Below, piece after piece: positions 41,756 to 55,181 of a DNA stretch of 64,000 nt. This DNA is from Thalassotalea euphylliae. Its GTDB lineage: Bacteria; Pseudomonadota; Gammaproteobacteria; Enterobacterales; Alteromonadaceae. The stretch spans positions 4,154,001-4,218,000 of the forward strand of contig NZ_QUOV01000001.1 in NCBI RefSeq assembly GCF_003390395.1, read 5' to 3'. Made by a program: the position numbers and the translations under genes. Below the pieces are notes generated by a model. It was not told the DNA's origin and searched no databases. It worked only from the letters and a program-made list of their open reading frames with translations. Position 1 is the first letter of the stretch; each line of letters begins with the position of its first letter.

Positions 41756-42415
41756 TTAACGCGATTTTGCTTCGTTGAGCTGACTTTGGCTATCATCAGT
41801 TTTTGGCTTCTGGTCTTGTGCATCCCATAGCAATCGGGCATCAAAACTCTCGGCGGCTAGCATGGTAAACACCACCATTAGACCAAAATAGGTGATCCCC
41901 TTTGCTGCTTCAATAGAACTGAGAAAACCCAAATTGACCACCGCCGCCATAATAGCGACGACAAAAACATCTAACATTGACCAAGGGCCTAAGAATTCGA
42001 CTATGTGATACAACTGCCCTTGCTGCTTAACCGTTAACTTACTCGCGCGTTTGGCGTGATACATCAGGATAAACAAGCCAATAATTTTTGCCAGCGGCAC
42101 AACAAAGCTGGCAATAAAAATCACGATCGCCACTGGGTACATACCAAACTGAATAAAGGTTGCTATCCCCTCTAAAATGGTAGATGCCTCTGGTTGCCCA
42201 AGAGTGTAGTAGATCATCATGGGGTATAAGTTGGCTGGCACCAGCATCACTAATGCGGCAATTGTCCACGCAAAGGTATGCGATAAACTATTGATTTTGC
42301 GTACGCTGAAACTGCGGTGGCAGCGTGGACATTGCTGAGTTTCAGCCTGCATTTTCACCACTTTATGGCAGCAAGGGCAGCAGCCCAAACCCATCGCTTT
42401 CGCATTAGTCTTCAA
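41756..42415 (-). CDS. LetA/PqiA-type membrane protein, second half
   Basis: A 219-residue inner-membrane protein with one PqiA domain. The N-terminus has a zinc-ribbon-like pair, CCPCCHKV and CPRCHRSF, followed by four membrane segments (about 48-70, 95-118, 140-165 and 168-188) and the motifs PANLYPMMIYYTLGQ and GPWSMLDVFVVAIM typical of PqiA. It overlaps the upstream PqiA gene by 11 bases. In E. coli LetA both halves are one polypeptide of about 430 residues. It presumably feeds lipid to the MCE tube encoded next. Confidence 0.92.
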   Translation of the reverse strand: MKTNAKAMGLGCCPCCHKVVKMQAETQQCPRCHRSFSVRKINSLSHTFAWTIAALVMLVPANLYPMMIYYTLGQPEASTILEGIATFIQFGMYPVAIVIFIASFVVPLAKIIGLFILMYHAKRASKLTVKQQGQLYHIVEFLGPWSMLDVFVVAIMAAVVNLGFLSSIEAAKGITYFGLMVVFTMLAAESFDARLLWDAQDQKPKTDDSQSQLNEAKSR

Positions 42416-43034
42416 GCGCTTGCTCCATTTTCTCCCAAACGTAGTGATGATCTAAGGTCACCGATACCAGCGTTGAGCAAATAAGCAATAACACAAAGCT
42501 CATTAAGCCGCCGCCAACAGTGAGCTCAGCAAGATCAACAATTTTGTAAATAGAAACAACAACACCAAGGAAGAACACATGCAGCATCGTCCAACTGTCT
42601 AGCACGTGATAACTGCGAAAAAACACTAGCAATGACTGGCTAATTTTATTGAAATGCACCGCAACAGCAATGTAAAACGCCGCCAACAGGTGAACTATAG
42701 GAATGGCAATGGTAAACAAAAACACGATAAACGCGACGATGTGGTAGTCGGTGTTAAGCAAAATGATGATGCAATCAATTAATGATGCTTCATTGTGCGT
42801 ACCTGCGGCACTTACCCCTATCATGGGTAATAAAATTGCAGGAAAGAAGAGTAATAGCCCCGCCAGCGACACCGCCATAGTGCGCTCCATGGGGTTTTTC
42901 TTTAGCTCGTACAGCAGGGCGCTGCAACCAGGGCAAGTGGCTTTTTGACCCGGTTCAATTTTAGGTTTAGATAACACCGCATCACAGCGACGACAAACCA
43001 CAATATTGTTAAGCGATGCAGCTGGTTTTGCCAA
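42405..43034 (-). CDS. LetA/PqiA-type membrane protein, first half
   Basis: A 209-residue inner-membrane PqiA-domain protein, first gene of the unit. It has the CRRCDAVL and CPGCSALLYELKK zinc-ribbon pairs, then four membrane segments and the motifs MERTMAVSLAGLLLFFPA, PMIGV and DSWTMLHVFFLGVVVS. Two single-domain genes in place of one double-domain LetA could form a heterodimer. Together with the MCE gene this is a Let/Pqi-type intermembrane lipid transport operon. Confidence 0.92.
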   Translation of the reverse strand: MAKPAASLNNIVVCRRCDAVLSKPKIEPGQKATCPGCSALLYELKKNPMERTMAVSLAGLLLFFPAILLPMIGVSAAGTHNEASLIDCIIILLNTDYHIVAFIVFLFTIAIPIVHLLAAFYIAVAVHFNKISQSLLVFFRSYHVLDSWTMLHVFFLGVVVSIYKIVDLAELTVGGGLMSFVLLLICSTLVSVTLDHHYVWEKMEQALED

Positions 43035-43134
43035 GGTAACCTACTGAAAGAGGAGCGTTTAACTGCAAGTTTAAGTCAATATCTAACGCTAGCCAACCTG
43101 TCTACGACAAAAATCACCCGCATATTGGAGACAT

Positions 43135-43160
43135 AAAAAAAGCAGCCTACTGGCTGCTTT
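43135..43160 (-). terminator. Rho-independent terminator of tetrahaem cytochrome gene
   Basis: Arms AGCAGCC and GGCTGCT around TACT; on the minus strand it is followed by a run of U. It lies 19 bases after the cytochrome stop. Confidence 0.85.
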
Positions 43161-43178
43161 CTCTAATTTAGCAATAGC

Positions 43179-44411
43179 TTAAAGCGATTGGATAAACGCT
43201 GTAAGGTTAGCAATATCATCGTCTGATAGCTTGATCGCGATGTTACGCATCATAGCGTTAGCATCGTTACCACGTGCACCAGAGCGGAATTGCTCTAACT
43301 GTGCTTTCACGTAATCACCGTGCTGGTTAAGTAATGCAGGGAACTTCGCGTGCTGCATACCTTCACCGCTTGGGCTATGACATGCTGCACAAGCGGTGAT
43401 ACCACGTGCAGAGTCACCACCGAAGTATAACTTGCGGCCCGCTTCGTTTGCAGTTTCCGGTTTCACAACCTTAGACGTTGTTTGGCTTGCAAAGTAAGCT
43501 GCTAAGTTCTTCATATCTTCGTCAGAAAGTGCTGCAACCATACCAGCCATAATGCCGTTGTTACGTGCGCCAGATTTGAATTCTTGTAACTGCTTCAACA
43601 AGTAACCTTCGTGCTGACCCGCAATTTTCGGGTAGATTGCTACTTGAGCGTTGCCGTCAGCACCGTGACAGGCAACACAAGTTGCTGATTTTGCTTTACC
43701 AAGCTCTATGTCACCCATAACAGCAACAGCGGCTTTAGTTTTCTTCGGTGCCACATTAGCAACAGCTGCAGGGTCTTTGAAGTAAGCGCCTAAGTCAGCA
43801 ATTTCTTGCTCTGTTAAAGGACCTGCAAACTGCCCCATTGCGTAGTTGTTAGCGCGGTCGCCTGATTTGAAGCTGTTTAATTGCTTTTCAATGTACTCAG
43901 GGTGTTGCTTCGCTAGATTTGGGTAAATTAATACTTTGCTTTCGCCGTCTTTACCGTGACAGCCAACACAAGCACCGATAGCACGAGACTCGTCGCCGTT
44001 TTCGTATAAGTATTTACCTGCTGCTGCATCACCAACAATAGCTGCTGTCACAACGGCTGCTGGAGCGGCTGCATCGCCCGCTGATGCCGAAGCTGATGCT
44101 GCGGTAAGTGGCTGGCTCGCAAAGTAAGCACCTAGGTCTTGCATATCTTGCTCAGACAAACCTGCTGCCATTGGCGCCATTACAGGATCGTTACGGGTTG
44201 AACCGTCTTTAAATGCTTTTAATTGCTTAACAATGTAATCAGCGTGCTGACCCGCTAGGTTAGGGTAGGTATCTACAGCGCTATGCCCAGTAGCACCATG
44301 ACATGCTGCACAAGTTGCGGCTTTCGCTTTCCCCGCTTCAGCGTCGCCTTGCGCATTTGCATTCGCTAGCACACCCAAGCCCAATAGAAGTGATACGATA
44401 ACTTTTTTCAT
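43179..44411 (-). CDS. Tetrahaem c4-type cytochrome (four fused class I domains)
   Basis: A 410-residue periplasmic protein with signal peptide (1-20, ending ANA) and four class I cytochrome c domains of about 90-100 residues, each with a haem site: CAACH (~34), CVGCH (~148), CVACH (~245), CAACH (~339). Each domain repeats YPNLAGQHADYIVKQL-like and MA-x-M distal ligand segments. Cytochrome c4 proper has two such domains, so this is a doubled version. It probably carries electrons to oxidases. It is divergent from engB, the same neighbour as c4 genes in other gammaproteobacteria. Confidence 0.93.
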   Translation of the reverse strand: MKKVIVSLLLGLGVLANANAQGDAEAGKAKAATCAACHGATGHSAVDTYPNLAGQHADYIVKQLKAFKDGSTRNDPVMAPMAAGLSEQDMQDLGAYFASQPLTAASASASAGDAAAPAAVVTAAIVGDAAAGKYLYENGDESRAIGACVGCHGKDGESKVLIYPNLAKQHPEYIEKQLNSFKSGDRANNYAMGQFAGPLTEQEIADLGAYFKDPAAVANVAPKKTKAAVAVMGDIELGKAKSATCVACHGADGNAQVAIYPKIAGQHEGYLLKQLQEFKSGARNNGIMAGMVAALSDEDMKNLAAYFASQTTSKVVKPETANEAGRKLYFGGDSARGITACAACHSPSGEGMQHAKFPALLNQHGDYVKAQLEQFRSGARGNDANAMMRNIAIKLSDDDIANLTAFIQSL

Positions 44412-44744
44412 CGAATGCTCTCTGCTTGTTGATCTTCATACTCAGCGCTTGTGATATTTAACTTAGCCCACACGCACACTGAATCCCAATATGATTAGTC
44501 GCGACATTTTACACGAATATTCTTTTTGTGTAACAGGCTAGTGCATAAAAACCTATAAAAATTCCGGTTATTTAACCGTTTTCTTCAATTAATCCTCATA
44601 ATTGCACAAAGTCATAGGCGAATTAAGCGTTAGATAAATCACTCCAAACAGACTTAACACAATGTTTTTACTAGATATAAATGCAATTTATAGCAAATAG
44701 CGCTGCAATGAATTTCCGGTGAAAATCTACCGCAAAGCTATTTA
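44412..44744. other. Divergent promoter region between cytochrome and engB
   Basis: About 330 bases, AT-rich, no gene or repeat recognised. Confidence 0.35.
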
Positions 44745-44775
44745 TTGTCAGCAACAATGAAAAAAACGCTATAAT
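44745..44775 (+). promoter_or_regulatory. Candidate engB promoter
   Basis: TTGTCA at 44745 and a perfect TATAAT at 44770-44775 with 19-bp spacing, 30 bases upstream of the engB start. The spacing is long, so the -35 call is tentative. Confidence 0.5.
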
Positions 44776-44804
44776 AGCGCCACTTCAAAAGAGGAATGTC
44801 TGCT

Positions 44805-45452
44805 GTGTCTGAGCAAGTTATCAATTTAAACAACGCAAAATTTACCATTAGTGCCCCCGATATCCGCCGTTTACCTGAAGATACAGGTATCGAAGTTGCC
44901 TTTGCTGGCCGCTCTAACGCAGGTAAATCTAGTGCGCTTAACACACTGACTCGCCAAAAAAGCTTAGCTCGCACGAGTAAAACACCAGGGCGTACCCAAT
45001 TGATCAACGTTTTTGAAATAGCAGAAAACAAGCGTTTGATTGACCTTCCTGGCTATGGCTTTGCCAAAGTTCCGATGGAAATGAAGAAAAAATGGCAAAA
45101 AGCCCTTGGTGAATACTTAGAAAAACGCGACTGCTTAAAAGGTTTAGTGGTATTAATGGATATTCGCCACCCGCTAAAAGACCTAGATCACAATTTGATT
45201 GAATGGGCCGTAGACAGTGAGTTACCTGTGCTATGTCTACTCACTAAGTCAGACAAACTATCGCAAGGTAAAGCATCGGCAGAAGTGTTAAAAGTGAAGA
45301 AAACACTGGCTGAACTGAACGGGAATATCAAAGTACAAGCGTTTTCATCGTTGAAAAAGTCAGGTATGCCACAAGCAACGCAAGTAATTAGTGACTGGTT
45401 TGCTCAAGAAGATTTAGAGCAAGAAAGTTTAGGCGAAGACGCTGCAGAGTAA
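44805..45452 (+). CDS. engB: Ribosome biogenesis GTPase YihA/YsxC
   Basis: Essential GTPase that helps assemble the 50S subunit. It has about 215 residues with the TrmE-Era-EngA-like G domain: G1 [11 protein letters not shown]2 [11 protein letters not shown]3 [11 protein letters not shown]4 TKSDKLS and G5 SSLKKSG. An ATG at 44796 is in frame but only one base from GAGG; a GTG at 44805 is 10 bases from it and gives the usual MSEQ-type start, so I prefer it. A short hairpin (AAGCTCTA...TAGAGCTT) lies about 50 bases after the stop. Confidence 0.96.
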
Positions 45453-45798
45453 GACTATTTAGGATAGGCAGCTGCGAGCACAGTTAGCTGCATAAATCCA
45501 TTGTAAGCTCTAGCTTAAAAAGTTAGAGCTTAGCACCCACTCCCTCAATACAAATTCCAAAGACTTCTTTCACGCTCACGAGAACATCAACGGCTTTAAT
45601 ACCTGTTGAACTTTGAATAGAAGCCAATCACGCTTACACGCCTAATGAATTCGCTATAAAGAATCGATAGATTCAATGTAGAACAAGCATACCAGTATCA
45701 ATTTGGCTGACTCTCCAAGCGCATGACGCTCCAAGCGCAGATAGTACTCTAGGTTAACCAATCCTTTAATTTAATTGGTAGCTCACTGAAATTTGGAC
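45453..45798. other. Intergenic region after engB
   Basis: About 350 bases; apart from the weak hairpin near 45503-45535 I see no gene, RNA or repeat. Confidence 0.35.
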
Positions 45799-45918
45799 AA
45801 AAAAAACCGGCAATGCAAGCATTGCCGGGTATTTAGCTATGGGGAAAGCTAGAATATACAAAATTATTACAACAGGCGTTCACAAGGAACGATTTGAAGT
45901 ATAGAGCATGTACTCTAC
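45799..45918 (-). ncRNA. Candidate small RNA, possibly Spot 42-like
   Basis: A strong minus-strand terminator (CCGGCAATG...CATTGCCGG, then eight U; 45799-45828) lies 230 bases beyond the nearest upstream gene end. Its upstream sequence starts GTAGAGTACATGCTCTATAC, resembling the GTAGGGTACA and TGTTCTATCTTTCA blocks of Spot 42. A hairpin TAGCT-N8-AGCTA precedes the terminator, as GGCT...AGCC does in Spot 42. Length (about 120) and convergence with engB also match the spf locus. The 5' end is guessed; the alternative is a long 3' UTR of the adjacent operon. Confidence 0.4.
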
Positions 45919-46060
45919 AAAAGTAAAGTACTTACTCTAAATTAATTAAAAAATATTCATTCGGTTTGAATATCCCGCAGTCTAAGATTAAAACCCAACC
46001 GTTAAGACTAAGAAACACCCTAGTTTTAGGAGAGTAGAAAAATCTTTTGATTGTAGTTAT
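45919..46060. other. AT-rich spacer downstream of membrane protein gene
   Basis: About 140 AT-rich bases; the minus strand has AGTAAGTACTTTACT, a near-palindrome that could be part of a promoter for the candidate small RNA. Confidence 0.3.
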
Positions 46061-47350
46061 TTAAGTAATCGCAACATATAATTTTAACCAAAGGAGAAGT
46101 GGCACTAATAGGAGGTTTATCCAAACAAAAACGCCATACCATACTAAGCGCTCTTTCTTACTTTCAATTGCTGCTCCAAGCCTCTCTTTCATTTCTCTAA
46201 TTTCTTTTATAACTTTTGTTCTATCTAACTTTTGAATTCCGTCTTCCGTTAGTTTCCTGAATACAAAATTTATGCTGTCTTGAATCTGTTTGAACCGAGA
46301 AAACTGCTCACTAATAATGAATTGAGAAAACAAGCAAACGATAAAAATACCTAACACAATGAAGCTATAACTCAACCAACTACTAGCTTTTAGTAATGCA
46401 CCTATACCTATTAAACTTGCTGGAACTGCGAACATTTTAGCTTGCACGTCACCAACTGTTTTATTGATACTTTCAATGTACTCGAAATACTTATTCTCGA
46501 CTTCGTTATGAAATTCATCCAATGCGAAATTTTGAATGAATACCTGAACTTGTTCGTGGTAAGAAGCTGTTAATTTATCTATGTTTTCCAGCAAAGATTT
46601 AACAACGGGTACTTTAGAGGTTTTTTCTTCTGCAACATCTGACAGTACTTGAACAATGGCTTGCTTAAAAAACACTTTTCGTTCTTCAGTATGGAGATCA
46701 CTTTTACTTTGTAAAAGTGTTGTGAACTCTCCTAATTTTGGTATGTTCTGTATTTTCGTAAAGCTATAATCGATTATTAATTCAAGTTCGGTATGCTTCA
46801 GAAATTTATCTTTGTCTCTTTTAGCAATAAAATAAATAAGCTCTCCGTTTTCTGTGGGCTTGTCGATATCAGATAAGCTACGAAATAAAGCAAACCAATC
46901 TTGTACAACAGACAGATTATTGAACCATACAGGTTTATCTTTAGAAGTACTTTTATAGCCTTCATTTACTAAGTAGTAATAATCAGGTAAGGCTGCACCT
47001 TTAGCCAAAAAAGGAGCCTGTTTATCAATAAGTTCAATTGCAGAAGTGGCAAAAAAAATAGGCTTCTTGTCTTGCGGCTTATTTATTGAAATTGAAAGGT
47101 GAGTACAGACATCTTCCGGCTCCAAAGTTTCAAATGAGACATCTTCATAATCTACATTTAGCTCCAATTTTCCAAGCAACTCACTTTGCTTGTTTAACTC
47201 TTGCAGAATGCTGATAACCCGCGAGTTTAGCGAAAACTCTTTAGTTAAGCTAAAGGTGTCGAATGAAGAAACCTCTATATTTCCCTTGCCGACAGAATAG
47301 AGCTCTATCAGTAAATTAAATACCAGTTCCTTTTGGTCAATATCATTCAT
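46061..47350 (-). CDS. Three-TM membrane protein of NA37-linked accessory module
   Basis: I do not recognise this 429-residue protein. Residues 1-300 are predicted soluble: charged, mixed alpha/beta, with EYIESINKTVGDVQAK-type helices before the membrane part. Three hydrophobic segments are clear: about 307-325 (VPASLIGIGALL), 327-350 (YSFIVLGIFIVCLFSQFII) and 405-427 (WYGVFVWINLLLVPLLLWL), with an amphipathic charged helix between. It starts one base after the NA37 gene's stop, so the two are translated together. AT-rich codon use suggests acquisition. The architecture (soluble sensor plus C-terminal membrane module) recalls membrane effectors of defence systems, but that is inference. Confidence 0.65.
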   Translation of the reverse strand: MNDIDQKELVFNLLIELYSVGKGNIEVSSFDTFSLTKEFSLNSRVISILQELNKQSELLGKLELNVDYEDVSFETLEPEDVCTHLSISINKPQDKKPIFFATSAIELIDKQAPFLAKGAALPDYYYLVNEGYKSTSKDKPVWFNNLSVVQDWFALFRSLSDIDKPTENGELIYFIAKRDKDKFLKHTELELIIDYSFTKIQNIPKLGEFTTLLQSKSDLHTEERKVFFKQAIVQVLSDVAEEKTSKVPVVKSLLENIDKLTASYHEQVQVFIQNFALDEFHNEVENKYFEYIESINKTVGDVQAKMFAVPASLIGIGALLKASSWLSYSFIVLGIFIVCLFSQFIISEQFSRFKQIQDSINFVFRKLTEDGIQKLDRTKVIKEIREMKERLGAAIESKKERLVWYGVFVWINLLLVPLLLWLKLYVAIT

Positions 47351-47351
47351 T

Positions 47352-48395
47352 TTATAAATTTAAATGTTGCTTAACTTGATCAATAAATTCTTTTGATAGA
47401 TCTCGAATAATTATTTGATCTTTTTCAGGATCAAACATTACGGGCTTCGCGCTTGAGGCGCTATCTCCGCTTAAGCCAAGAACATCTTTTTCAAAGTTAA
47501 CTGTTACTTTATCTGTTTTAAAAGCTAATCTAACCATGCTTTCGACAGTCCCTTTTGAAGCTTGGAAACTATCAGGAAGTTGATATCTATCTTGTTTAGC
47601 GAACTTAAGGAAGGCATCTTTAGCCTCGTTGATTTTATCATCAGGTAAGTAAGCATTAGCAATCTCATTTATTCTGTTTAAGTATACAGTTTTATCTTTA
47701 TTCGCATTAAAGTATCTCAATACACTTTGTTGAGCTTCTTTTATTAAGTGCTCTTTTTGTGAATAACCCTCTAAAAACACTCTAACCGCGGCAGGAGAGG
47801 CTTTAACAGCCTTTGATGGAGTAATATTATCTGTGCAACTAAAAGCTAATTGAAAATAACCTGAAGGTTCTCCACGCTTACTAATGAAGCCTATGTAACT
47901 TTTCTTTAATTCAGTTTTCCCTAAATTGTTCAAATAGTATGAAACATTAATATCTAAAGCTTGATATAGCTTGCTTAAATCTACGTGAATTTCTTGTTCT
48001 GGTTTTAGGTTAGTTAGTTTTATACCATCTGTATTTTTTATCATGGCTACTAGTAACCTGTTGTCACCTTTAGATTGATACTCAATGAAGCATATATATC
48101 CCCCTGTCCCACTTGTCGTACTTATTGCATCAGACAGTAAGTCCATAGCTTTTGTGGAAACTTCATAAAAACCCTCTTGATGATAAGCGTCATTGTAATC
48201 TGCTAGTAGCCGAGGAAACTGGCCACTACTCTGAAATTTTCCCCAGATCACATTCACCTTATTTCGATATATATTCAAGATATCTTCAGCCAGTGACATA
48301 ACTAATGGATCACTCAAATCTAAAACACTTTTTGCGATATCGGAATTCTGGTGCTTAATTAGTTCATGAATGATGAAGTTAGTAATCTTAGCCAT
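47352..48395 (-). CDS. Nucleoid-associated protein, NA37/YejK (NdpA) family
   Basis: A 347-residue protein of the NA37 family (E. coli YejK, 335 residues), whose members bind nucleic acid in the nucleoid. The N-terminus aligns as IIHELIKHQNSDI with family residues, the middle has the long helical region, and the C-terminus ends with the conserved VNFEKDVLG...VMFDPEKDQIIIRDLSKEF pattern. It is divergent from core YejK in being AT-rich and coupled to a membrane protein gene. This looks like an accessory paralogue. AGGA lies 11 bases before the ATG. It is the first gene of a two-gene unit. Confidence 0.82.
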   Translation of the reverse strand: MAKITNFIIHELIKHQNSDIAKSVLDLSDPLVMSLAEDILNIYRNKVNVIWGKFQSSGQFPRLLADYNDAYHQEGFYEVSTKAMDLLSDAISTTSGTGGYICFIEYQSKGDNRLLVAMIKNTDGIKLTNLKPEQEIHVDLSKLYQALDINVSYYLNNLGKTELKKSYIGFISKRGEPSGYFQLAFSCTDNITPSKAVKASPAAVRVFLEGYSQKEHLIKEAQQSVLRYFNANKDKTVYLNRINEIANAYLPDDKINEAKDAFLKFAKQDRYQLPDSFQASKGTVESMVRLAFKTDKVTVNFEKDVLGLSGDSASSAKPVMFDPEKDQIIIRDLSKEFIDQVKQHLNL

Positions 48396-48597
48396 GTTAA
48401 ATACTATCCTGTGAGGTTATTTGCCCACATTACTTATGCAAGCGGTTATTTGGTGATTTATAAACGTTGATTTTGTTTAAACTGTCCAAGCTTATTATTT
48501 TGAAATAAATAAATGCTTGATGTAGGTATATTGCGACTGTTCTATTTTATAAATTGCAATATATCTATTTCTTCACGGTTGTGTTTCTTCTTATTAC

Positions 48598-48879
48598 TTA
48601 TCTTAGCGAGCTACACACTCGGCCTTTTTTTACATTTCTTGAAGATTCGCCGGCTGCTAGTGTTCGGCATTTTCGGCAGCAACCTTGAAAACCATCGGGA
48701 TTGGCAGAAGTTACATCGGCAGAGGGCATGCCAAAATCATAAGGATATTGGTGAAACACATGCTCGCTACCATGGGTAGCAGAGCAATGTGGGCATGATT
48801 TGTAAGTATGACCTGACTCGGCATCAACGCGTATTACGGTTCCACTACTTAATTCGAAGCCACAACACTGGCACGTCAT
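48598..48879 (-). CDS. Small cysteine-rich (zinc-ribbon-like) protein
   Basis: A 93-residue protein beginning MTCQCCGFEL. Paired cysteines CQCC, CPHC and CCRKC suggest one or two zinc sites; HVFHQYPYDFG and NPDGFQGCCRKC are distinctive. I do not recognise the family. An earlier Met (48915) is open, but GGAG seven bases before the ATG at 48879 decides the start. The last 25 residues are basic and may be disordered. It starts just after the small exported peptide gene and may share its transcript. Confidence 0.65.
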   Translation of the reverse strand: MTCQCCGFELSSGTVIRVDAESGHTYKSCPHCSATHGSEHVFHQYPYDFGMPSADVTSANPDGFQGCCRKCRTLAAGESSRNVKKGRVCSSLR

Positions 48880-48898
48880 AAAAAAACTCCTAAATAAT

Positions 48899-49081
48899 TT
48901 ATTGAACGCGTTCACGGCACAATGGGAAATCTAAACAACGACCAAATTTTTCGAGTTCGCTTGGCTTGTTATCGACTTTTGCCAATGTTGATGCTTTATT
49001 GGAGGTGAATTCAGTGTTACTTGCTAAGGTGAAAGTAACGGCAGCGATAGTGATTACAGTAAGTGTTTTTAAAGTTTTCAT
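48899..49081 (-). CDS. Small exported peptide
   Basis: A 60-residue product starting MKTLKTLTVITIAAVTFTLA, a plausible signal peptide, followed by a polar mature part with two cysteines (CLDFPLC) that could form a disulfide. Start choice at 49081 follows AGAGGA upstream; an in-frame ATG at 49090 lies directly beside it. The family is not recognised. It is divergent from a transmembrane transcription regulator 120 bases away, suggesting that regulator may control it. Confidence 0.5.
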   Translation of the reverse strand: MKTLKTLTVITIAAVTFTLASNTEFTSNKASTLAKVDNKPSELEKFGRCLDFPLCRERVQ

Positions 49082-49202
49082 TTTCGGCATTCCTCTTGGT
49101 TGAAACACCGATTCAAGTTATTGAAACTACTGTTACGAGACTTTATAAAAAGCTTATAATGTTATGATATTTTTCATATAAATTAGGCAGTTTGCTGGCT
49201 TT

Positions 49203-51248
49203 ATGGTTAGTTCGGGCGTTTATTACACAATCAATAATAGACTTCAGTTTTTCTATAAAAGCGGTTGTTTAGTGCTTGACCAACAAGAGGTCAAATTAGA
49301 CCCACTAGAGTCACTAGTACTGGAAGAATTAACCAAACACCCCAAAGAAATTATTGCCACAGATACTTTGCTTGATCTTTGGCCAACTAGCGCAACTAGC
49401 CCAAATTCCCTGACAAGAGTTATTTCAACGTTAAGAAAGAAGCTACGAACACTAGATGCTTTCCATGTTGAGATTAAGAATTACCCCAAAAAAGGTTATG
49501 CATTAATTGCTGAGGTTGATCACTTATCAGCCCAAACACCTAAGGTACAATTAGAAAACAGGCACACTAAACCAACTAGATTGGCAGCTAAGACGCCAAT
49601 AATAGGGATACTATTCATTGCTGTTGTGCTGCTCATCAATTATGCCGCCACCTTTGTTTTTGAAAAAACCGAAGATTCAGTGTCACCTGTGCTTGATAAA
49701 GCGATACAGCTTGTCGACGATCAATTTGAAAAAGTCGATTTGTCGGTAAACGACACACATACGCAAGTCGTTTATGCAACTCGTGATAACGAGCAGGCCA
49801 ATTGGCAGTTGAAAGTATTGGACACCTATTCGCTAGAAAGTAGGGTGATATCAGAGGCTGGTGTTAATTTAAGATCCCCAGACTGGCTCAACAATGACAC
49901 ATTGATTTATCGAGCATACGGGGATAATAGTTGCGCGATTAAAAAGCTTGATTTGTTGCACAGTGATGCGCAGCCGATCGCTATGTTTCCCTGCAATGAA
50001 TTAACCACAGGCAAAGGGCTTTCTGTATTAAGTGCTGACACCATATTATTTACTGACGCGGCTCATGATATTGCACCGGCATCTCTTTACAAAGGGAATA
50101 TACAAACAGGAAAAGTCATTAAAATTCCTGGTTTTGATAGCAGTGGTGTTGGTGCTTACAACATTCAATCAAAAGCGGGCTCAAATTTAGTTGCGATACT
50201 AACTAGCACGGATTGGAGTACCAGCAATATTCACTTAGTAGATACGCAAGACAACTGGCGCTCAGTTTGGCAAACCAACACACCTAAAGCCAAACATTCA
50301 GTAAGTTGGGATGGTCAGTCTTTGTTTCACGCCAACGAAAGTGGTGGCGTAACCGCCCATTTATTCAATGCGAGTCATTATGTGAAAAGCATCGAGATGT
50401 CGGGTTTTAGCAAGCTTTACAATTTTGTCGGTAATAATGGCTCTGTCGCTTTTATACAAGGCGATATGTATCGCACTGATGTATTGATGTCGCCTATCAA
50501 TGAATCCGAAAGCACAGCAACCTTGCTTGTTGATTCACGTGCATCCAACAAACTTGCCCAATTTATTGACGAAAATACCGTGCTGTACGTTTCAGACGTT
50601 ACAGGGATTGAACAGCTTTGGTTAGTTGATATCAATACACAAACGAAGAAACAGCTATCAATGTTTGCAAAAGCCCAGAAAATTGATCACATTGCTTACA
50701 ATGTACAAAAGGGGCTAGTTGCCATTGAGGCAGATAAAACAATAAGCCTATTCACACTAGCTAGCGGTAAAGTAAGTGGTGATGGTTATCAGCAATTCGC
50801 AGGTACCAAACCATTATTTTTTGAAGATAACTTGCTATTTAGTACTCATGACGATTCAGATAACTATCGTATTGATGCCTTAAACCTTGAAAATCAAACA
50901 CTGAAGAAAAGTTTTTTGATTGGTGCGCACGACGCCAAGGTAAGCAATGGTCGTTTGTACTACACCAAGTACTATCAACCAGGCTTATGGCAATACCACA
51001 AACAAAAAGATGATGACTTAGTCTCCGCGATGAGTCAGGACGTCAGTTATTGGTTTGTCGACGGTCAACAGCTGTTATTCAAAGATCAAGACGATATGCC
51101 AACACTGGTTGACTTGACCAATAACCAGTTCACTCAATTGAACGGGTCAACTTGTCAGTTTATTACGGACTATCAATTCGGCCATTGTTTAGGGCAAGCC
51201 TATAAGCCTAACAATACACAATTGATGTTGGCGGAAACCAACCTCTAG
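49203..51248 (+). CDS. ToxR/CadC-like transmembrane transcription regulator
   Basis: A 681-residue protein. Residues 10-110 form an OmpR-type winged helix (LDPLESLVLEELTKHP, ATDTLLDLWP, NSLTRVISTLRKKL, IKNYPKKGYAL). A membrane segment lies at about 144-166 (IIGILFIAVVLLINYAATFVF). The remaining 500 residues are periplasmic and show repeating beta-propeller-like strands (NNDTLIYRAYGDN, ENTVLYVSDVTGIEQLWLVD), similar to TolB/WD-like folds. It would bind DNA while sensing an envelope signal, as CadC and ToxR do. The signal and targets are unknown; the divergent small-peptide gene is an obvious candidate. Confidence 0.88.
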   Translation: MVSSGVYYTINNRLQFFYKSGCLVLDQQEVKLDPLESLVLEELTKHPKEIIATDTLLDLWPTSATSPNSLTRVISTLRKKLRTLDAFHVEIKNYPKKGYALIAEVDHLSAQTPKVQLENRHTKPTRLAAKTPIIGILFIAVVLLINYAATFVFEKTEDSVSPVLDKAIQLVDDQFEKVDLSVNDTHTQVVYATRDNEQANWQLKVLDTYSLESRVISEAGVNLRSPDWLNNDTLIYRAYGDNSCAIKKLDLLHSDAQPIAMFPCNELTTGKGLSVLSADTILFTDAAHDIAPASLYKGNIQTGKVIKIPGFDSSGVGAYNIQSKAGSNLVAILTSTDWSTSNIHLVDTQDNWRSVWQTNTPKAKHSVSWDGQSLFHANESGGVTAHLFNASHYVKSIEMSGFSKLYNFVGNNGSVAFIQGDMYRTDVLMSPINESESTATLLVDSRASNKLAQFIDENTVLYVSDVTGIEQLWLVDINTQTKKQLSMFAKAQKIDHIAYNVQKGLVAIEADKTISLFTLASGKVSGDGYQQFAGTKPLFFEDNLLFSTHDDSDNYRIDALNLENQTLKKSFLIGAHDAKVSNGRLYYTKYYQPGLWQYHKQKDDDLVSAMSQDVSYWFVDGQQLLFKDQDDMPTLVDLTNNQFTQLNGSTCQFITDYQFGHCLGQAYKPNNTQLMLAETNL

Positions 51249-51268
51249 GATTGCACTCTCCACGCACA

Positions 51269-52273
51269 CTACTGGCGAGTATTGAAACTGAACGCCGCCT
51301 GATTATTTAGGCTGGAAAAAAACGCTTTAATATCTTGAATTTCTTGCGCTGTTAGACGAATACCCAGCTGATGTTTAGCGGTGTCGATAATAGCTTGTTC
51401 AATGGTAGTGGCAGCACCGTCATGGAAATAGGGAGCGGTATTTAGCACGTTACGCATCGAGGGCACTTTAAAAAAGAACTTATCACCAGCATTGCCAGTA
51501 ACCTCCGCTCGGCCAAGATCAACTTTATTGGGGTAAGGTTCGACAATGCCCATTTTCATCAACAGTTGCCCGCCCATCGCAGGGCCGTTATGGCAAGCAA
51601 CACAGCCTTTCTCGATAAATAGCTTTAAACCTGATTTTTCCTGCGTGTTTAGCGCAGTTTCATCACCTTTTAAATACTGTTCGAAGCGATCTTGGGAAAT
51701 TAATGTCCGCTGAAAGTCGGCCAGTGCAATCGCTAGGTTTTCCATCGTGATCTGCTTGGTATTCTCAGCGCTTGCCGGAAAAGCCTGCGCAAAAAGCTTG
51801 GTATAACCTTTACCCTCCAACCTAAGAATAACTTGCTCTGGAGAAGTCATCGCCATTTCAGCCGGGTTGAATATCGGTAAAGTCGCTTGCTCAACAAGCG
51901 TTTTAGCTCTCGCATCCCAAAATTGGGCAAAGTGCAAGCTTGAATTCCAAGTGCTCGGCGCATTGCGAGTACCTAGCTTGCCCAGTGCGCCGATTGATGT
52001 TTTCAAATTATCAACGCCAGCACCGCCATTACCGAGTCGATGGCAGGTATTACATGACTGGCTATTGTTAATAGACAGGGCAGTTTCGAAATAGAGTTTT
52101 TTACCTAAGGCGATACGTGCTTGAGTATTTTGATTTTGTGCTAAAAGTGGCTTTGGAAGTGGCGAAAAATAAGTGCGAGCAGTGTCTAACAGCTTTGTGT
52201 TTTCAGTTGCAGCAATTGCCACGCTTGTTACGAACACGAAATGAAGGAACAGAGAAAAAAGGAGCTTGCTCAT
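51269..52273 (-). CDS. Di-haem cytochrome c peroxidase (CcpA/MauG family)
   Basis: A 334-residue periplasmic protein with signal peptide (1-21, ending AIA). Two haem sites are CNTCH (about 76) and CVACH (about 222), each with the family's surrounding residues (SCNTCHRLGNGG, KGCVACHNGPAMGG), and the C-terminal PSMRNV...APYFHDG segment. It reduces hydrogen peroxide using electrons from small c-type cytochromes. Two c-type cytochromes are encoded elsewhere in the window and could be donors. It is convergent with the ToxR-like gene. Confidence 0.95.
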   Translation of the reverse strand: MSKLLFSLFLHFVFVTSVAIAATENTKLLDTARTYFSPLPKPLLAQNQNTQARIALGKKLYFETALSINNSQSCNTCHRLGNGGAGVDNLKTSIGALGKLGTRNAPSTWNSSLHFAQFWDARAKTLVEQATLPIFNPAEMAMTSPEQVILRLEGKGYTKLFAQAFPASAENTKQITMENLAIALADFQRTLISQDRFEQYLKGDETALNTQEKSGLKLFIEKGCVACHNGPAMGGQLLMKMGIVEPYPNKVDLGRAEVTGNAGDKFFFKVPSMRNVLNTAPYFHDGAATTIEQAIIDTAKHQLGIRLTAQEIQDIKAFFSSLNNQAAFSFNTRQ

Positions 52274-52462
52274 CGCTTACCTAATTGGTTATGGCCGTTT
52301 CGCCTGGTAATGTTTCGGCTAGTAATTCTTGCCTAATAATACGGCTAAGTTTAAACCACTATTAAAGGCGCTAGAATAACATGCCTCTATTCTCACGCTT
52401 TTCTCAAGCTTTAAAGAGAGCCATGATGCAATGCTATCGCCTTTTCACAGAAGCAAAGAGCG

Positions 52463-53752
52463 TTAGCTTTGTAGTGGCCAAATCAGCTCAACTTTCGCGC
52501 CGATTCCCGCATTATCCTGATTACCAACTTTCACATCTGAATCAGCCACATTGGAAAGCCTGACAACTCCGCCGTGTTTATTCAACACAGTTTCAACAAA
52601 GGCTAAGCCGATACCGGCACCATTAGCCTTGGTAGTAAACAACGGCGTAATAGCGTTGTCGATATTGGAAAAGCCGGTGCCATTATCAATCACACTCAGG
52701 TATTGCTGATTATCTTGCTGATAATAATTTACCTTGATAACCACACCCTGAGTATCTTTCGACTCAACCGCATTTTTAACTAAATTCATCAGCACTTGCG
52801 CCATCAGTTGCGAGTCGGCGTAACAGATATGTTGACCGGTAAACGTCAGTGAATCTTTTTCGGTTAACAGCACTTTGGTTTGCTCAACCAAGGCAGGTAA
52901 TTCAAAACGCTCTTTATTGGGCTCTGGAATTTTTGCCACTTCCGCAAAGCGTTCGACAAAGTTCAGCAAGCCGCTCGAGCGGGTTTTAACACGCTCAAGC
53001 ACTTTACGCGTTTGCACTGTATCCAAGGTTTGCATCGACAATAAGGTTTCTGCCATTGACGACATCGGCGTTAGCGTATTTCTCAGCTCATGACTCAGCA
53101 CGCGCACGAGGTTTTTCTGCACCGCCTGCTCGCTTTGTTTAAGTTCGCTGGCAATATCAATGGCGGTAAACAAATGGATAGGTTGTTGCTGAAAGTTAAT
53201 CAGACTGGACTGACAACGCCAATTTGACGCCAGCGCTGAGTGATTAAGCTGCTTATTTTGCTCAACAAAGCCTAGCGCTTTAGCACTCATGCCTTGTAAT
53301 AAGCTGATTTCAGCAATGTCGTATGCCGCTCGGTTGGCATAGCTGAGCGTGTAGTCTTGCTCAAATATCACCACAGCTATCGGCAAGTCTTCAAAGAGCT
53401 GACCAAATAACATGGTCAGTGAAGCATTTGCGCCGCTATTCACTGTAGACTGTTGATAAAGCTGTGTGATCTCATCACTCAAATCATCGAGCAATGTCGA
53501 TTTACCACGCTGAGCAAGCGAGACACCTGACTCTCCCATGGCTAGGCTTTGCGTGTAGGTGGTTAAACGCATTATCGAAGATGACCAAAACTGCCATGTG
53601 CGCCACGCCAGCCAACACAGTGGGTAACTCAACAAAAACACTGAGGTTACCGTGGCAAGCATGGACCAGCCCCACGCAGTCGTTAATAGCACGACTAAGG
53701 TAATAAAAGCGAGTACAAAGCAGGTCAGGGCGAATTTGATCTTAAATTCCAC
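52463..53752 (-). CDS. Sensor histidine kinase of NtrB-like type
   Basis: A membrane kinase of about 430 residues pairing with the response regulator upstream. Two N-terminal membrane segments (about 8-30 and 33-55 of this start) precede a PAS-like domain (LFEDLPIAVVIFEQDYTLSYANRAA), HisKA with the phospho-acceptor in VLSHELRNTLTPM, and HATPase_c (N box NLVKNAVES, DNGTGF, GAGIGLAFVETVL). Starts upstream at 53827 would overlap the regulator; a GTG at 53752 preceded by AGCAGG fits better and leaves 13 bases after the regulator's stop. It is co-transcribed with that regulator. Confidence 0.9.
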   Translation of the reverse strand: MEFKIKFALTCFVLAFITLVVLLTTAWGWSMLATVTSVFLLSYPLCWLAWRTWQFWSSSIMRLTTYTQSLAMGESGVSLAQRGKSTLLDDLSDEITQLYQQSTVNSGANASLTMLFGQLFEDLPIAVVIFEQDYTLSYANRAAYDIAEISLLQGMSAKALGFVEQNKQLNHSALASNWRCQSSLINFQQQPIHLFTAIDIASELKQSEQAVQKNLVRVLSHELRNTLTPMSSMAETLLSMQTLDTVQTRKVLERVKTRSSGLLNFVERFAEVAKIPEPNKERFELPALVEQTKVLLTEKDSLTFTGQHICYADSQLMAQVLMNLVKNAVESKDTQGVVIKVNYYQQDNQQYLSVIDNGTGFSNIDNAITPLFTTKANGAGIGLAFVETVLNKHGGVVRLSNVADSDVKVGNQDNAGIGAKVELIWPLQS

Positions 53753-53765
53753 TGAGCGAAACCTG

Positions 53766-55181
53766 CTACTCAAGGTCAAATTCCTCTTTATCGAGCTGAT
53801 ACTTTTCCATTCGGCGATACAACGCATTGCGCGAAATACCCAGTGCTGCAGCCGCCTTACTGATATGGCCTTGATATTTTTTCAGCGCTTTCCTGATCAT
53901 CTCAAATTCAATGTCATCAAGCGGTCGAAGTTCTCTATCACTAACTTCATTGCTAGCATGCTCTGATGACAGAGGCTCAGACAGCATAATATGTGCACTT
54001 AAAATTTCTGTCTCGCGACACAAAATCACCGCTCGCTCTATCACATGGCTAAGTTCGCGAATATTACCCGGCCATGAATGAGCATTCAGCATCGCTATAA
54101 CATCTTTGCTTAATGTTAGCGTTGGCTTGTTGTATTTGGCTGAAAACTTTTCGATCAAGCTATTGCACAGCGGCACAATATCTTCTTTACGCTCTCTAAG
54201 CGGCGGTAATGTGAGCACAAAGGTATTTAAGCGAAATTTAAGATCGCGTCTAAACGCACCAGTCTCCACTAACTGAGCCAAATCGGCATTGGTGGCGCTG
54301 ATCAATCGTACATCTGCACGCAAAGTTTGGCTGGCACCAACAGGTTCAAATTCGCCGCTTTCTAGTACCCGTAACATTTTGGGCTGAACACTAGCAGGCA
54401 GAGTGCCGATTTCGTCCAAAAACAATGTGCCATGTTGCGCCAATTCAAAGCGCCCTTGGCGATTTTCACGCGCATCAGTAAAAGCACCTTTTTTATGACC
54501 GAATAATTCACTTTCAAATAAATTTTCTGGGATTGCGCCCATATTCACCGAGATAAAAGGGGCTGAGTTTCGGCCAGATAGTTGGTGTATACGCTGAGCA
54601 AGTAATGATTTTCCGGTGCCATTTTCACCTAAAATCAAAACGCTGGCTTGCGTGTCAGCCACTTGATCAATCATAGCTTCAAGTTGCTGCATCGCTTGAG
54701 ATTCCGCAATCCAGTTTGCAGTAATAGAATCCGTATTCGTTTTACGATTGGCGACTTTTTGGGGGGAGGACTCACCATCAATAGGTATTTTAGCTATTTG
54801 CTTGTCGACTATTTGTTTATCGATGATACCCAACAGCTTTTGGTTATCCCATGGCTTTTCAATAAAGTCAGCAGCACCTAATTGCATACCTTTGACCGCG
54901 AGTTCAATATTTCCCCAAGCCGTCATCAGTACCGTTGTGATATTTTGCTGCGCTAACTGCGACAGTACTTCCAACCCTTCAGTGCCACTAGTGGTATCAC
55001 GACTGAAATTCATGTCTAGTAGCACTAATCTGGGTTTAACACGAGCAGTGATGCTCGCTAATTCGGCAGGTGAGCCCGCTTCCATTACCTGATAACCTTC
55101 ATTGGTCAGCAGCATAGACAAGGCCAATCGAATATCTTCATCGTCATCCACAACAACGACCAGCCCTTTGTTCATTTGCAT
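53766..55181 (-). CDS. Sigma-54-dependent response regulator (NtrC family)
   Basis: A 471-residue transcription activator. The receiver domain (1-120) has the acidic pocket DDDEDIR and phospho-Asp in LLDMNFSRD, with the conserved Lys in FIEKPWD. The AAA+ domain has Walker A GENGTGKS, the sigma-54 contact loop GAFTDA, and Walker B GTLFLDEIG. A Fis-type helix-turn-helix ends the protein (ISKAAAALGISRNALYRRM). Met at 55181 is preceded by AAGGAG; an earlier Met at 55196 belongs to a tandem-repeated leader. It very likely activates the adjacent ABC exporter operon. Confidence 0.95.
   Translation of the reverse strand: MQMNKGLVVVVDDDEDIRLALSMLLTNEGYQVMEAGSPAELASITARVKPRLVLLDMNFSRDTTSGTEGLEVLSQLAQQNITTVLMTAWGNIELAVKGMQLGAADFIEKPWDNQKLLGIIDKQIVDKQIAKIPIDGESSPQKVANRKTNTDSITANWIAESQAMQQLEAMIDQVADTQASVLILGENGTGKSLLAQRIHQLSGRNSAPFISVNMGAIPENLFESELFGHKKGAFTDARENRQGRFELAQHGTLFLDEIGTLPASVQPKMLRVLESGEFEPVGASQTLRADVRLISATNADLAQLVETGAFRRDLKFRLNTFVLTLPPLRERKEDIVPLCNSLIEKFSAKYNKPTLTLSKDVIAMLNAHSWPGNIRELSHVIERAVILCRETEILSAHIMLSEPLSSEHASNEVSDRELRPLDDIEFEMIRKALKKYQGHISKAAAALGISRNALYRRMEKYQLDKEEFDLE

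Follow-up and report, generated by a model that had tools for sequence, protein, structure and literature searches.

What does a gene for a nucleoid-associated protein do when it lies immediately upstream of a gene for a membrane protein? The question is raised by a locus of Thalassotalea euphylliae, found in a window (the whole stretch of DNA analysed) of 64,000 nt from contig NZ_QUOV01000001.1, positions 4,154,001 to 4,218,000 of the forward strand. The pair and the parts of its membrane protein are the following.

47352..48395, minus strand: first gene, NA37/YejK-family protein, DS1_1-like, 347 residues (open reading frame (ORF), PF04245, NF053868, AlphaFold)
46061..47350, minus strand: second gene, membrane protein, DS1_2-like, 429 residues (NF053869, hydropathy, conservation)
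Membrane protein parts: N-terminal part variable; most conserved stretch at about residues 261-320; hydrophobic near 302-351 and 401-429 (conservation, hydropathy)

Sequence comparison suggests that the pair is very probably an anti-phage module of two genes which belongs with DS-1 in kind, in a lineage other than that of the Escherichia coli pair that passes the DS1 cut-offs. We read it so because both proteins are homologous to the DS1 models, are tightly paired and co-inherited, and show a patchy and partly mobile distribution.

The two genes and their products

The original prediction had described a module of an NA37/YejK paralogue and a three-transmembrane protein one base apart, and the ORF list agrees, with both genes on the minus strand and a gap of a single base between them. 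The GC (guanine plus cytosine) content is 0.341 for the NA37 gene and 0.343 for the membrane gene vs 0.431 for the whole window, so the pair is indeed AT-rich (34% GC in a 43% GC window). PF04245 matches the window NA37 with 143.6 bits (cut-off 24.6), and its AlphaFold model, with a predicted local distance difference test score (pLDDT) of 81.8, matches E. coli YejK (9be2). A second NA37 gene elsewhere in the genome scores higher with PF04245, 294.5 vs 143.3 bits, and since this is twice the score, the window gene is taken as the paralogue; by the same PF04245 score, NF001557 having been applied to the window protein, the other copy is the likelier YejK orthologue.

Concerning the membrane protein, no Pfam family matches above its cut-off. 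In the hydropathy profile two segments stand out strongly, with peaks that start at 329 and 402, and a further, weak segment lies near 302-324. Three transmembrane segments are thus a reasonable assignment in which the two strong segments stand and the first one is marginal. Best conserved are residues 261-320. The closest database protein, 98% identical, is also from T. euphylliae.

Relation to DS-1 and YejK

The window membrane protein matches the NCBIfam model NF053869 (DS1_2_antiphage) with an E value of 2.2e-36 and 125.7 bits over residues 118-411 (cut-off 315), and the NA37 protein matches NF053868 (DS1_1_antiphage) with 6.2e-30 and 104.4 bits over residues 50-331 (cut-off 330). As in DS-1 (NF053868 plus NF053869), a homologous NA37 gene lies directly upstream of a homologous membrane-protein gene, and all 41 membrane proteins of our alignment match NF053869 at E 1e-4 or better. 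A pair above both cut-offs occurs in the same order as the window pair in L019, a plasmid record from E. coli that also contains phage genes (375.2 against 315 and 451.4 against 330 bits), where 2 bases separate the genes. Local identity between the window and E. coli pairs is 22% and 23%.

The differences are equally clear: the window pair scores far under the equivalog cut-offs, its NA37 lies on another branch of the NA37 tree (a placement read without branch support), and its site is chromosomal, beside engB, not in a prophage. In addition, the NA37 proteins of L007, L016 and L019 carry a Cys-rich, zinc-ribbon-like N-terminus, a possible but not certain mark of DS-1, that the window NA37 lacks; L006, on the E. 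coli branch, lacks it likewise. By these comparisons, the window pair is a distant relative of DS-1, outside its curated bounds, and not DS-1 itself.

Given these relatives, the initial view that the pair matches no nameable system and is the best novel candidate is not supported. PMC13092281, published in 2026, reports the YejK nucleoid-associated domain as a new defence domain, found in one of 42 E. coli DS systems that were validated by plaque assay. The NCBIfam DS1 models presumably represent the YejK-domain system of DefensePredictor described there, judging from name and domain; 'DS-1' as a whole word is never printed in the article's text, figures and supplements aside. DNA like that of the pair in L012, the near-identical sister of L019, was found in 105 of 5426 E. 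coli genomes, with at least 99% identity in 106 of 106 records, and 3 of 30 among the matches listed of the E. coli copies carry the RefSeq names 'nucleoid-associated anti-phage protein' or 'anti-phage protein'.

Two observations on relatives may be recorded here. In E. coli MS 69-1 (L012:5447-6654) the membrane gene is split into two ORFs, while in the relative L019 it is whole. One protein labelled PF27135 (P0005, 247 residues, on a contig of 1365 bases) ends in a piece of a close membrane-protein relative (69% identity over 17% of the query), and represents an insertion junction or a chimeric contig.

Linkage and co-inheritance of the two genes

Relatives found with the window membrane protein alone were used to build a profile of 14 proteins, after a first look at linkage. 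It leaves out L017 (truncated, unlinked), L012 (split), L004 (98% identical) and L011 (doubtful, E 1.3e-4, no NA37). The profile matches 26 of 394 genomes of the order, own genome included, and 10 of 398 of the phylum. The 28 new loci are those outside the profile, one per genome; some share a genus (three in g335, three in g342), so that not all are independent. An NA37 gene lies directly upstream on the same strand in 26 of these 28, and the supposition that membrane-protein homologues might be unlinked to NA37 genes can be dismissed. The two unlinked loci are gene remnants (L045, with an internal stop in the membrane gene, and L050, a fragment of 149 residues). One partner is damaged or cut in three of the 26: the NA37 gene is cut near a contig end in L025 and holds a stop in L040, and the membrane gene holds a stop in L049. 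The first locus set contains one copy devoid of NA37, the truncated plasmid copy L017. Spacing in 33 pairs ranges from -59 to +15 bp, with overlap in 22, the first possible start codon being taken mechanically.

The two proteins also diverge together. Patristic distances of NA37 and membrane protein correlate with a Mantel r of 0.79 (p 1e-4, n=33), in trees that exclude L045, L049 and L040 (internal stops), L050, L025, L030 and further loci that run off an edge; in L032 the first NA37 codon is at the locus edge. Where a presumed housekeeping copy exists as well (18 genomes), the Mantel correlation is 0.73 between system NA37 and membrane protein, vs 0.22 (p 0.02) between housekeeping YejK and membrane protein and -0.006 (p 0.52) between housekeeping YejK and system NA37. 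In the midpoint-rooted tree the window NA37 joins that of G013, and then the Pseudomonas and Klebsiella pairs, not the E. coli pair. No group of the joint NA37 tree unites the 21 presumed housekeeping copies free of system copies: the smallest that contains them all (support 0.906) takes in 5 system copies, since the one chosen as housekeeping for G754 is placed with the latter. NA37 and the membrane protein are a real, co-inherited and partly mobile two-gene unit.

These data bear on one alternative, namely a housekeeping YejK paralogue that merely happens to stand beside an unrelated gene. The nearly equal scores of the window NA37 for YejK and DS1_1 speak for it; linkage in 26 of 28 loci, co-evolution and the separate, better-scoring NA37 copy in the genome speak against it, and its probability is practically negligible. 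Housekeeping YejK/NdpA, represented by that separate copy in the same genome, differs further in having no such membrane partner beside its presumed copies, the membrane profile finding one place per genome. At G735:C7:829622-838090, two NA37 genes stand at the pair with about 7 kb between them, and a third is found elsewhere in that genome; none of the three scores like a housekeeping copy.

Insertion site and distribution in the genus

The pair lies in a segment with the following borders and flanks.

45961..48597 (approximate borders), no strand: segment missing from the corresponding site of congener G006 (blastn of window 42001-54000 vs L051, L051 ORFs)
45786..45960, minus strand: left border, non-coding and conserved, perhaps a small RNA whose terminator stem is 45807-45828 (blastn, terminator-like site, alignment, fold)
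48598..48915, minus strand: right border, ORF of 105 residues with CxxC (zinc-ribbon-like), present at the empty site too (ORFs)
44796..45452, plus strand: flanking gene for an engB-type GTPase (close orthologue in 7 congeneric genomes)

The flanking GTPase gene, which we take to be engB, is present in 7 of 7 congeneric genomes with 83-100% identity. The flanks in G006 match the window (engB 96%, the next regulator 67% identity), and the distance from the conserved element to the zinc-ribbon ORF is 240 bp there and 2637 bp in the window. G006 thus has an empty site, and the inserted segment next to engB, as proposed originally, is supported by one congener, with the refinement that the conserved element (about 45786-45960) separates the pair from engB. 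The regulator gene has no blastn match beside engB in the stretches from G002-G005; in G004, engB is near the contig start and little is visible.

Synteny of the pair in every strain, considered at the outset as part of what would refute the reading, is not what the congeners show. A family member occurs in 4 of 7 genus genomes (own included) and in none of the other 3, and the distribution within the genus is patchy. G002 and G004 hold distant family members at other sites. G001 carries the pair at the same site, with an intact membrane protein 98% identical to that of the window and an NA37 gene interrupted by a two-ORF transposase-like element (L052:4665-5899), presumably IS3-like.

The G001 locus is relevant to a toxin-antitoxin explanation, with the membrane protein as toxin and NA37 as antitoxin, which would suit two adjacent or overlapping genes of fixed order and mobile distribution. 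With NA37 split and the membrane gene intact, NA37 would be dispensable for survival there, an objection weakened by the fact that the inserted element could also silence the downstream membrane gene. We regard this explanation as improbable.

In two congeners an ORF of 411-412 residues lies between engB and the conserved element (L053:3939-5177, L054:3244-4479), with none there in the window, and L054 has an ORF of 248 residues there too; because of these extra ORFs, the site varies in more than one way. The element itself is 98% identical in G006, 90% in G002, 86% in G003 and 84% in G005. It bears a promoter-like and a terminator-like site, and 4 pairs of the terminator stem are altered on both sides in some genomes. 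No Rfam family matches at E up to 1. Spot 42 and ErsA adjoin engB, and by position the element may be an unlisted small RNA.

Mobile elements and defence neighbourhood

In the E. coli and Klebsiella records whose neighbours were read, relatives of the pair occupy a prophage site flanked by the genes for antiterminator Q and for the holin. Relatives are also found on plasmids, with a membrane-protein relative in 7 plasmid records. To characterize the neighbourhood, the nearest 7 proteins per locus, none longer than 900 residues, were scanned for 20 pairs and for presumed housekeeping yejK genes. At 1e-10, 169 PADLOC models match among 132 neighbours of the 20 pairs, and 6 among 132 neighbours of 19 yejK genes, these figures being redundant models, not genes, with a few proteins causing much of the excess. 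For the control, 139 proteins were chosen and 132 scanned, the 7 of L096 being dropped, and the genomes of the case set also supplied 15 of the 20 control stretches. Per-protein lists cover 20 hand-chosen proteins of the 132 case proteins: six of them account for 59 of the 169 models, and 14 match nothing.

The six include a CBASS (cyclic oligonucleotide-based anti-phage signalling system) cyclase with its four-transmembrane effector beside a pair (L061), and a cytosine methyltransferase-like protein (L063) and a HEC-06/Orf5-like protein (L062) near pairs. Two proteins of L069 match only mad3/mad8 models, which the controls match too, and PtuA (Septu) models match two case neighbours. Phage-type integrases, in a Pfam scan run on the case set alone, make up 6 of the 132 case neighbours. 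As regards the survey of homologue pairs in defence islands suggested at the outset, CBASS or methyltransferase genes do lie near some pairs. Taken together, DS1 homology, linkage, co-inheritance, patchiness, occurrence in prophages and plasmids, and more PADLOC matches than around housekeeping controls support the anti-phage reading first proposed.

Mobility could also serve a function other than defence, NA37 modulating H-NS-like silencers, as NdpA2 does with MvaT on the integrative and conjugative element PAPI-1, and the membrane protein serving transfer or partition. Passages of PMC8565334 describe NdpA2 as a YejK-family protein that raises PAPI-1 transfer together with TprA; the 7 plasmid records fit such a role. 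The described NdpA2 partner, however, belongs to the ribbon-helix-helix regulators and is no membrane protein, and relatives of the window pair carry anti-phage names in NCBIfam and RefSeq, which leaves control of mobile DNA very improbable.

As a separate observation, an NA37-like gene occurs in 53 phage records (43 named Vibrio phages), and a membrane-protein relative in two phage records. It is possible that phage NA37-like genes are antagonists or decoys of such systems.

Proposed mechanism

The best explanation overall, which we hold to be probable, is an anti-phage module of the DS-1 kind with a Rex-like mechanism. For the mechanism itself our belief stays somewhat short of even: by analogy, NA37 would be a sensor that triggers the membrane effector, and this sensor-effector logic is what we infer from the pair. 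NA37, diverted from nucleoid duty, would recognise phage DNA, or else a state of the DNA that infection brings about (in topology or replication complexes), and contact the membrane protein at its N-terminal part, which is variable. The contact would trigger the conserved region at the first hydrophobic segments, so that the inner membrane is opened or damaged and the infected cell stops ahead of phage release. We place this mechanism first because a conserved stretch running into and including the first hydrophobic segments suits an effector, and because variation in the N-terminal part would fit a module specific for partner or trigger. The interaction of YejK with topoisomerase IV suggests DNA topology as one possible trigger.

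The precedent is RexAB, with RexA as DNA-binding sensor and RexB as membrane effector in passages of PMC12894663. Like the window pair, RexAB of lambda and of Pseudomonas putida prophage P1 is described there as two genes for a DNA-binding cytosolic and a membrane protein, and it is prophage-borne, as are relatives of the window pair. It differs in that the P. putida RexB has four predicted transmembrane segments by that account, whereas the window protein has three at most, and in that other protein families are involved; no sequence relation was seen, in searches that did not compare them directly.

The main rival to the Rex-like reading is a Kiwa-like trap, which we consider unlikely. Here the membrane protein would hold NA37 at the inner membrane, where it would bind entering phage DNA and block replication or transcription, the cell not being killed. 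Kiwa (KwaA and KwaB), as described in published work, likewise joins a membrane protein with a DNA-binding protein, which does not cleave, and the predicted fold of the window NA37 bears a weak resemblance to KwaB, at most a possible shared fold. Of 6 Kiwa loci that have a membrane ORF, however, 5 place the membrane gene first, and it is second in the window pair, whose membrane protein is also much longer than that of Kiwa. A profile comparison of NA37 with KwaB gives no support (E 0.47), and the KwaB domain PF16162 has no match in the own genome. Against 6 proteins taken as KwaA by position, the membrane protein gives E 0.06 over hydrophobic segments, in a comparison that had no positive control. 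With profiles of SLATT, the domain of a class of two-transmembrane effectors, it gives E 0.08 and 0.29, where the positive control, SLATT_1 vs SLATT_5, failed too; SLATT_fungal matches weakly (E 0.003) in 1 of 41 membrane-protein relatives.

It should be noted that several results weigh against a DS-1-kind module with a Rex-like mechanism. Neither window protein reaches the curated DS1 equivalog cut-offs, and the window NA37 scores 102.4 bits for YejK (NF001557, cut-off 341), close to its 104.4 for DS1_1. PADLOC 2.0.0 (2023), applied to the two pair proteins alone among the window genes, matches neither. The NA37 profile finds YejK alone at a credible E value among PDB sequences, and nothing RexA-like, RexA itself not being compared directly. 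NA37 is not basic, with an isoelectric point of 6.6 in the window protein and medians of 5.3 in 33 system members and 4.9 in 18 presumed housekeeping copies; DNA binding is therefore not obvious from charge. Finally, the structure prediction proposed at the outset for the 429-residue protein was run and gave a poor model (pLDDT 56) without significant PDB match, so that the argument for an effector or pore role comes entirely from layout and conservation. Our literature search brought up no paper that explains how DS-1 works, and the text covered of PMC13092281 gives none for its YejK-domain defence system.

Implications for the family

Across the family of 33 pairs, the NA37 core and the surroundings of the first hydrophobic segments are constant, and the N-terminal part of the membrane protein and the Cys-rich N-terminus of NA37 vary; sensor and effector parts are therefore testable. 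More tentatively than for the mechanism of the window pair, DS-1 could be one tip of a proteobacterial superfamily of NA37 and membrane-protein pairs with Rex-like immunity, in which recruited housekeeping nucleoid proteins sense phage DNA and open a membrane effector, and the window pair would be a separate lineage, perhaps with another phage specificity. Immunity would thereby gain a link to a nucleoid protein that is widespread and has no clear role so far.
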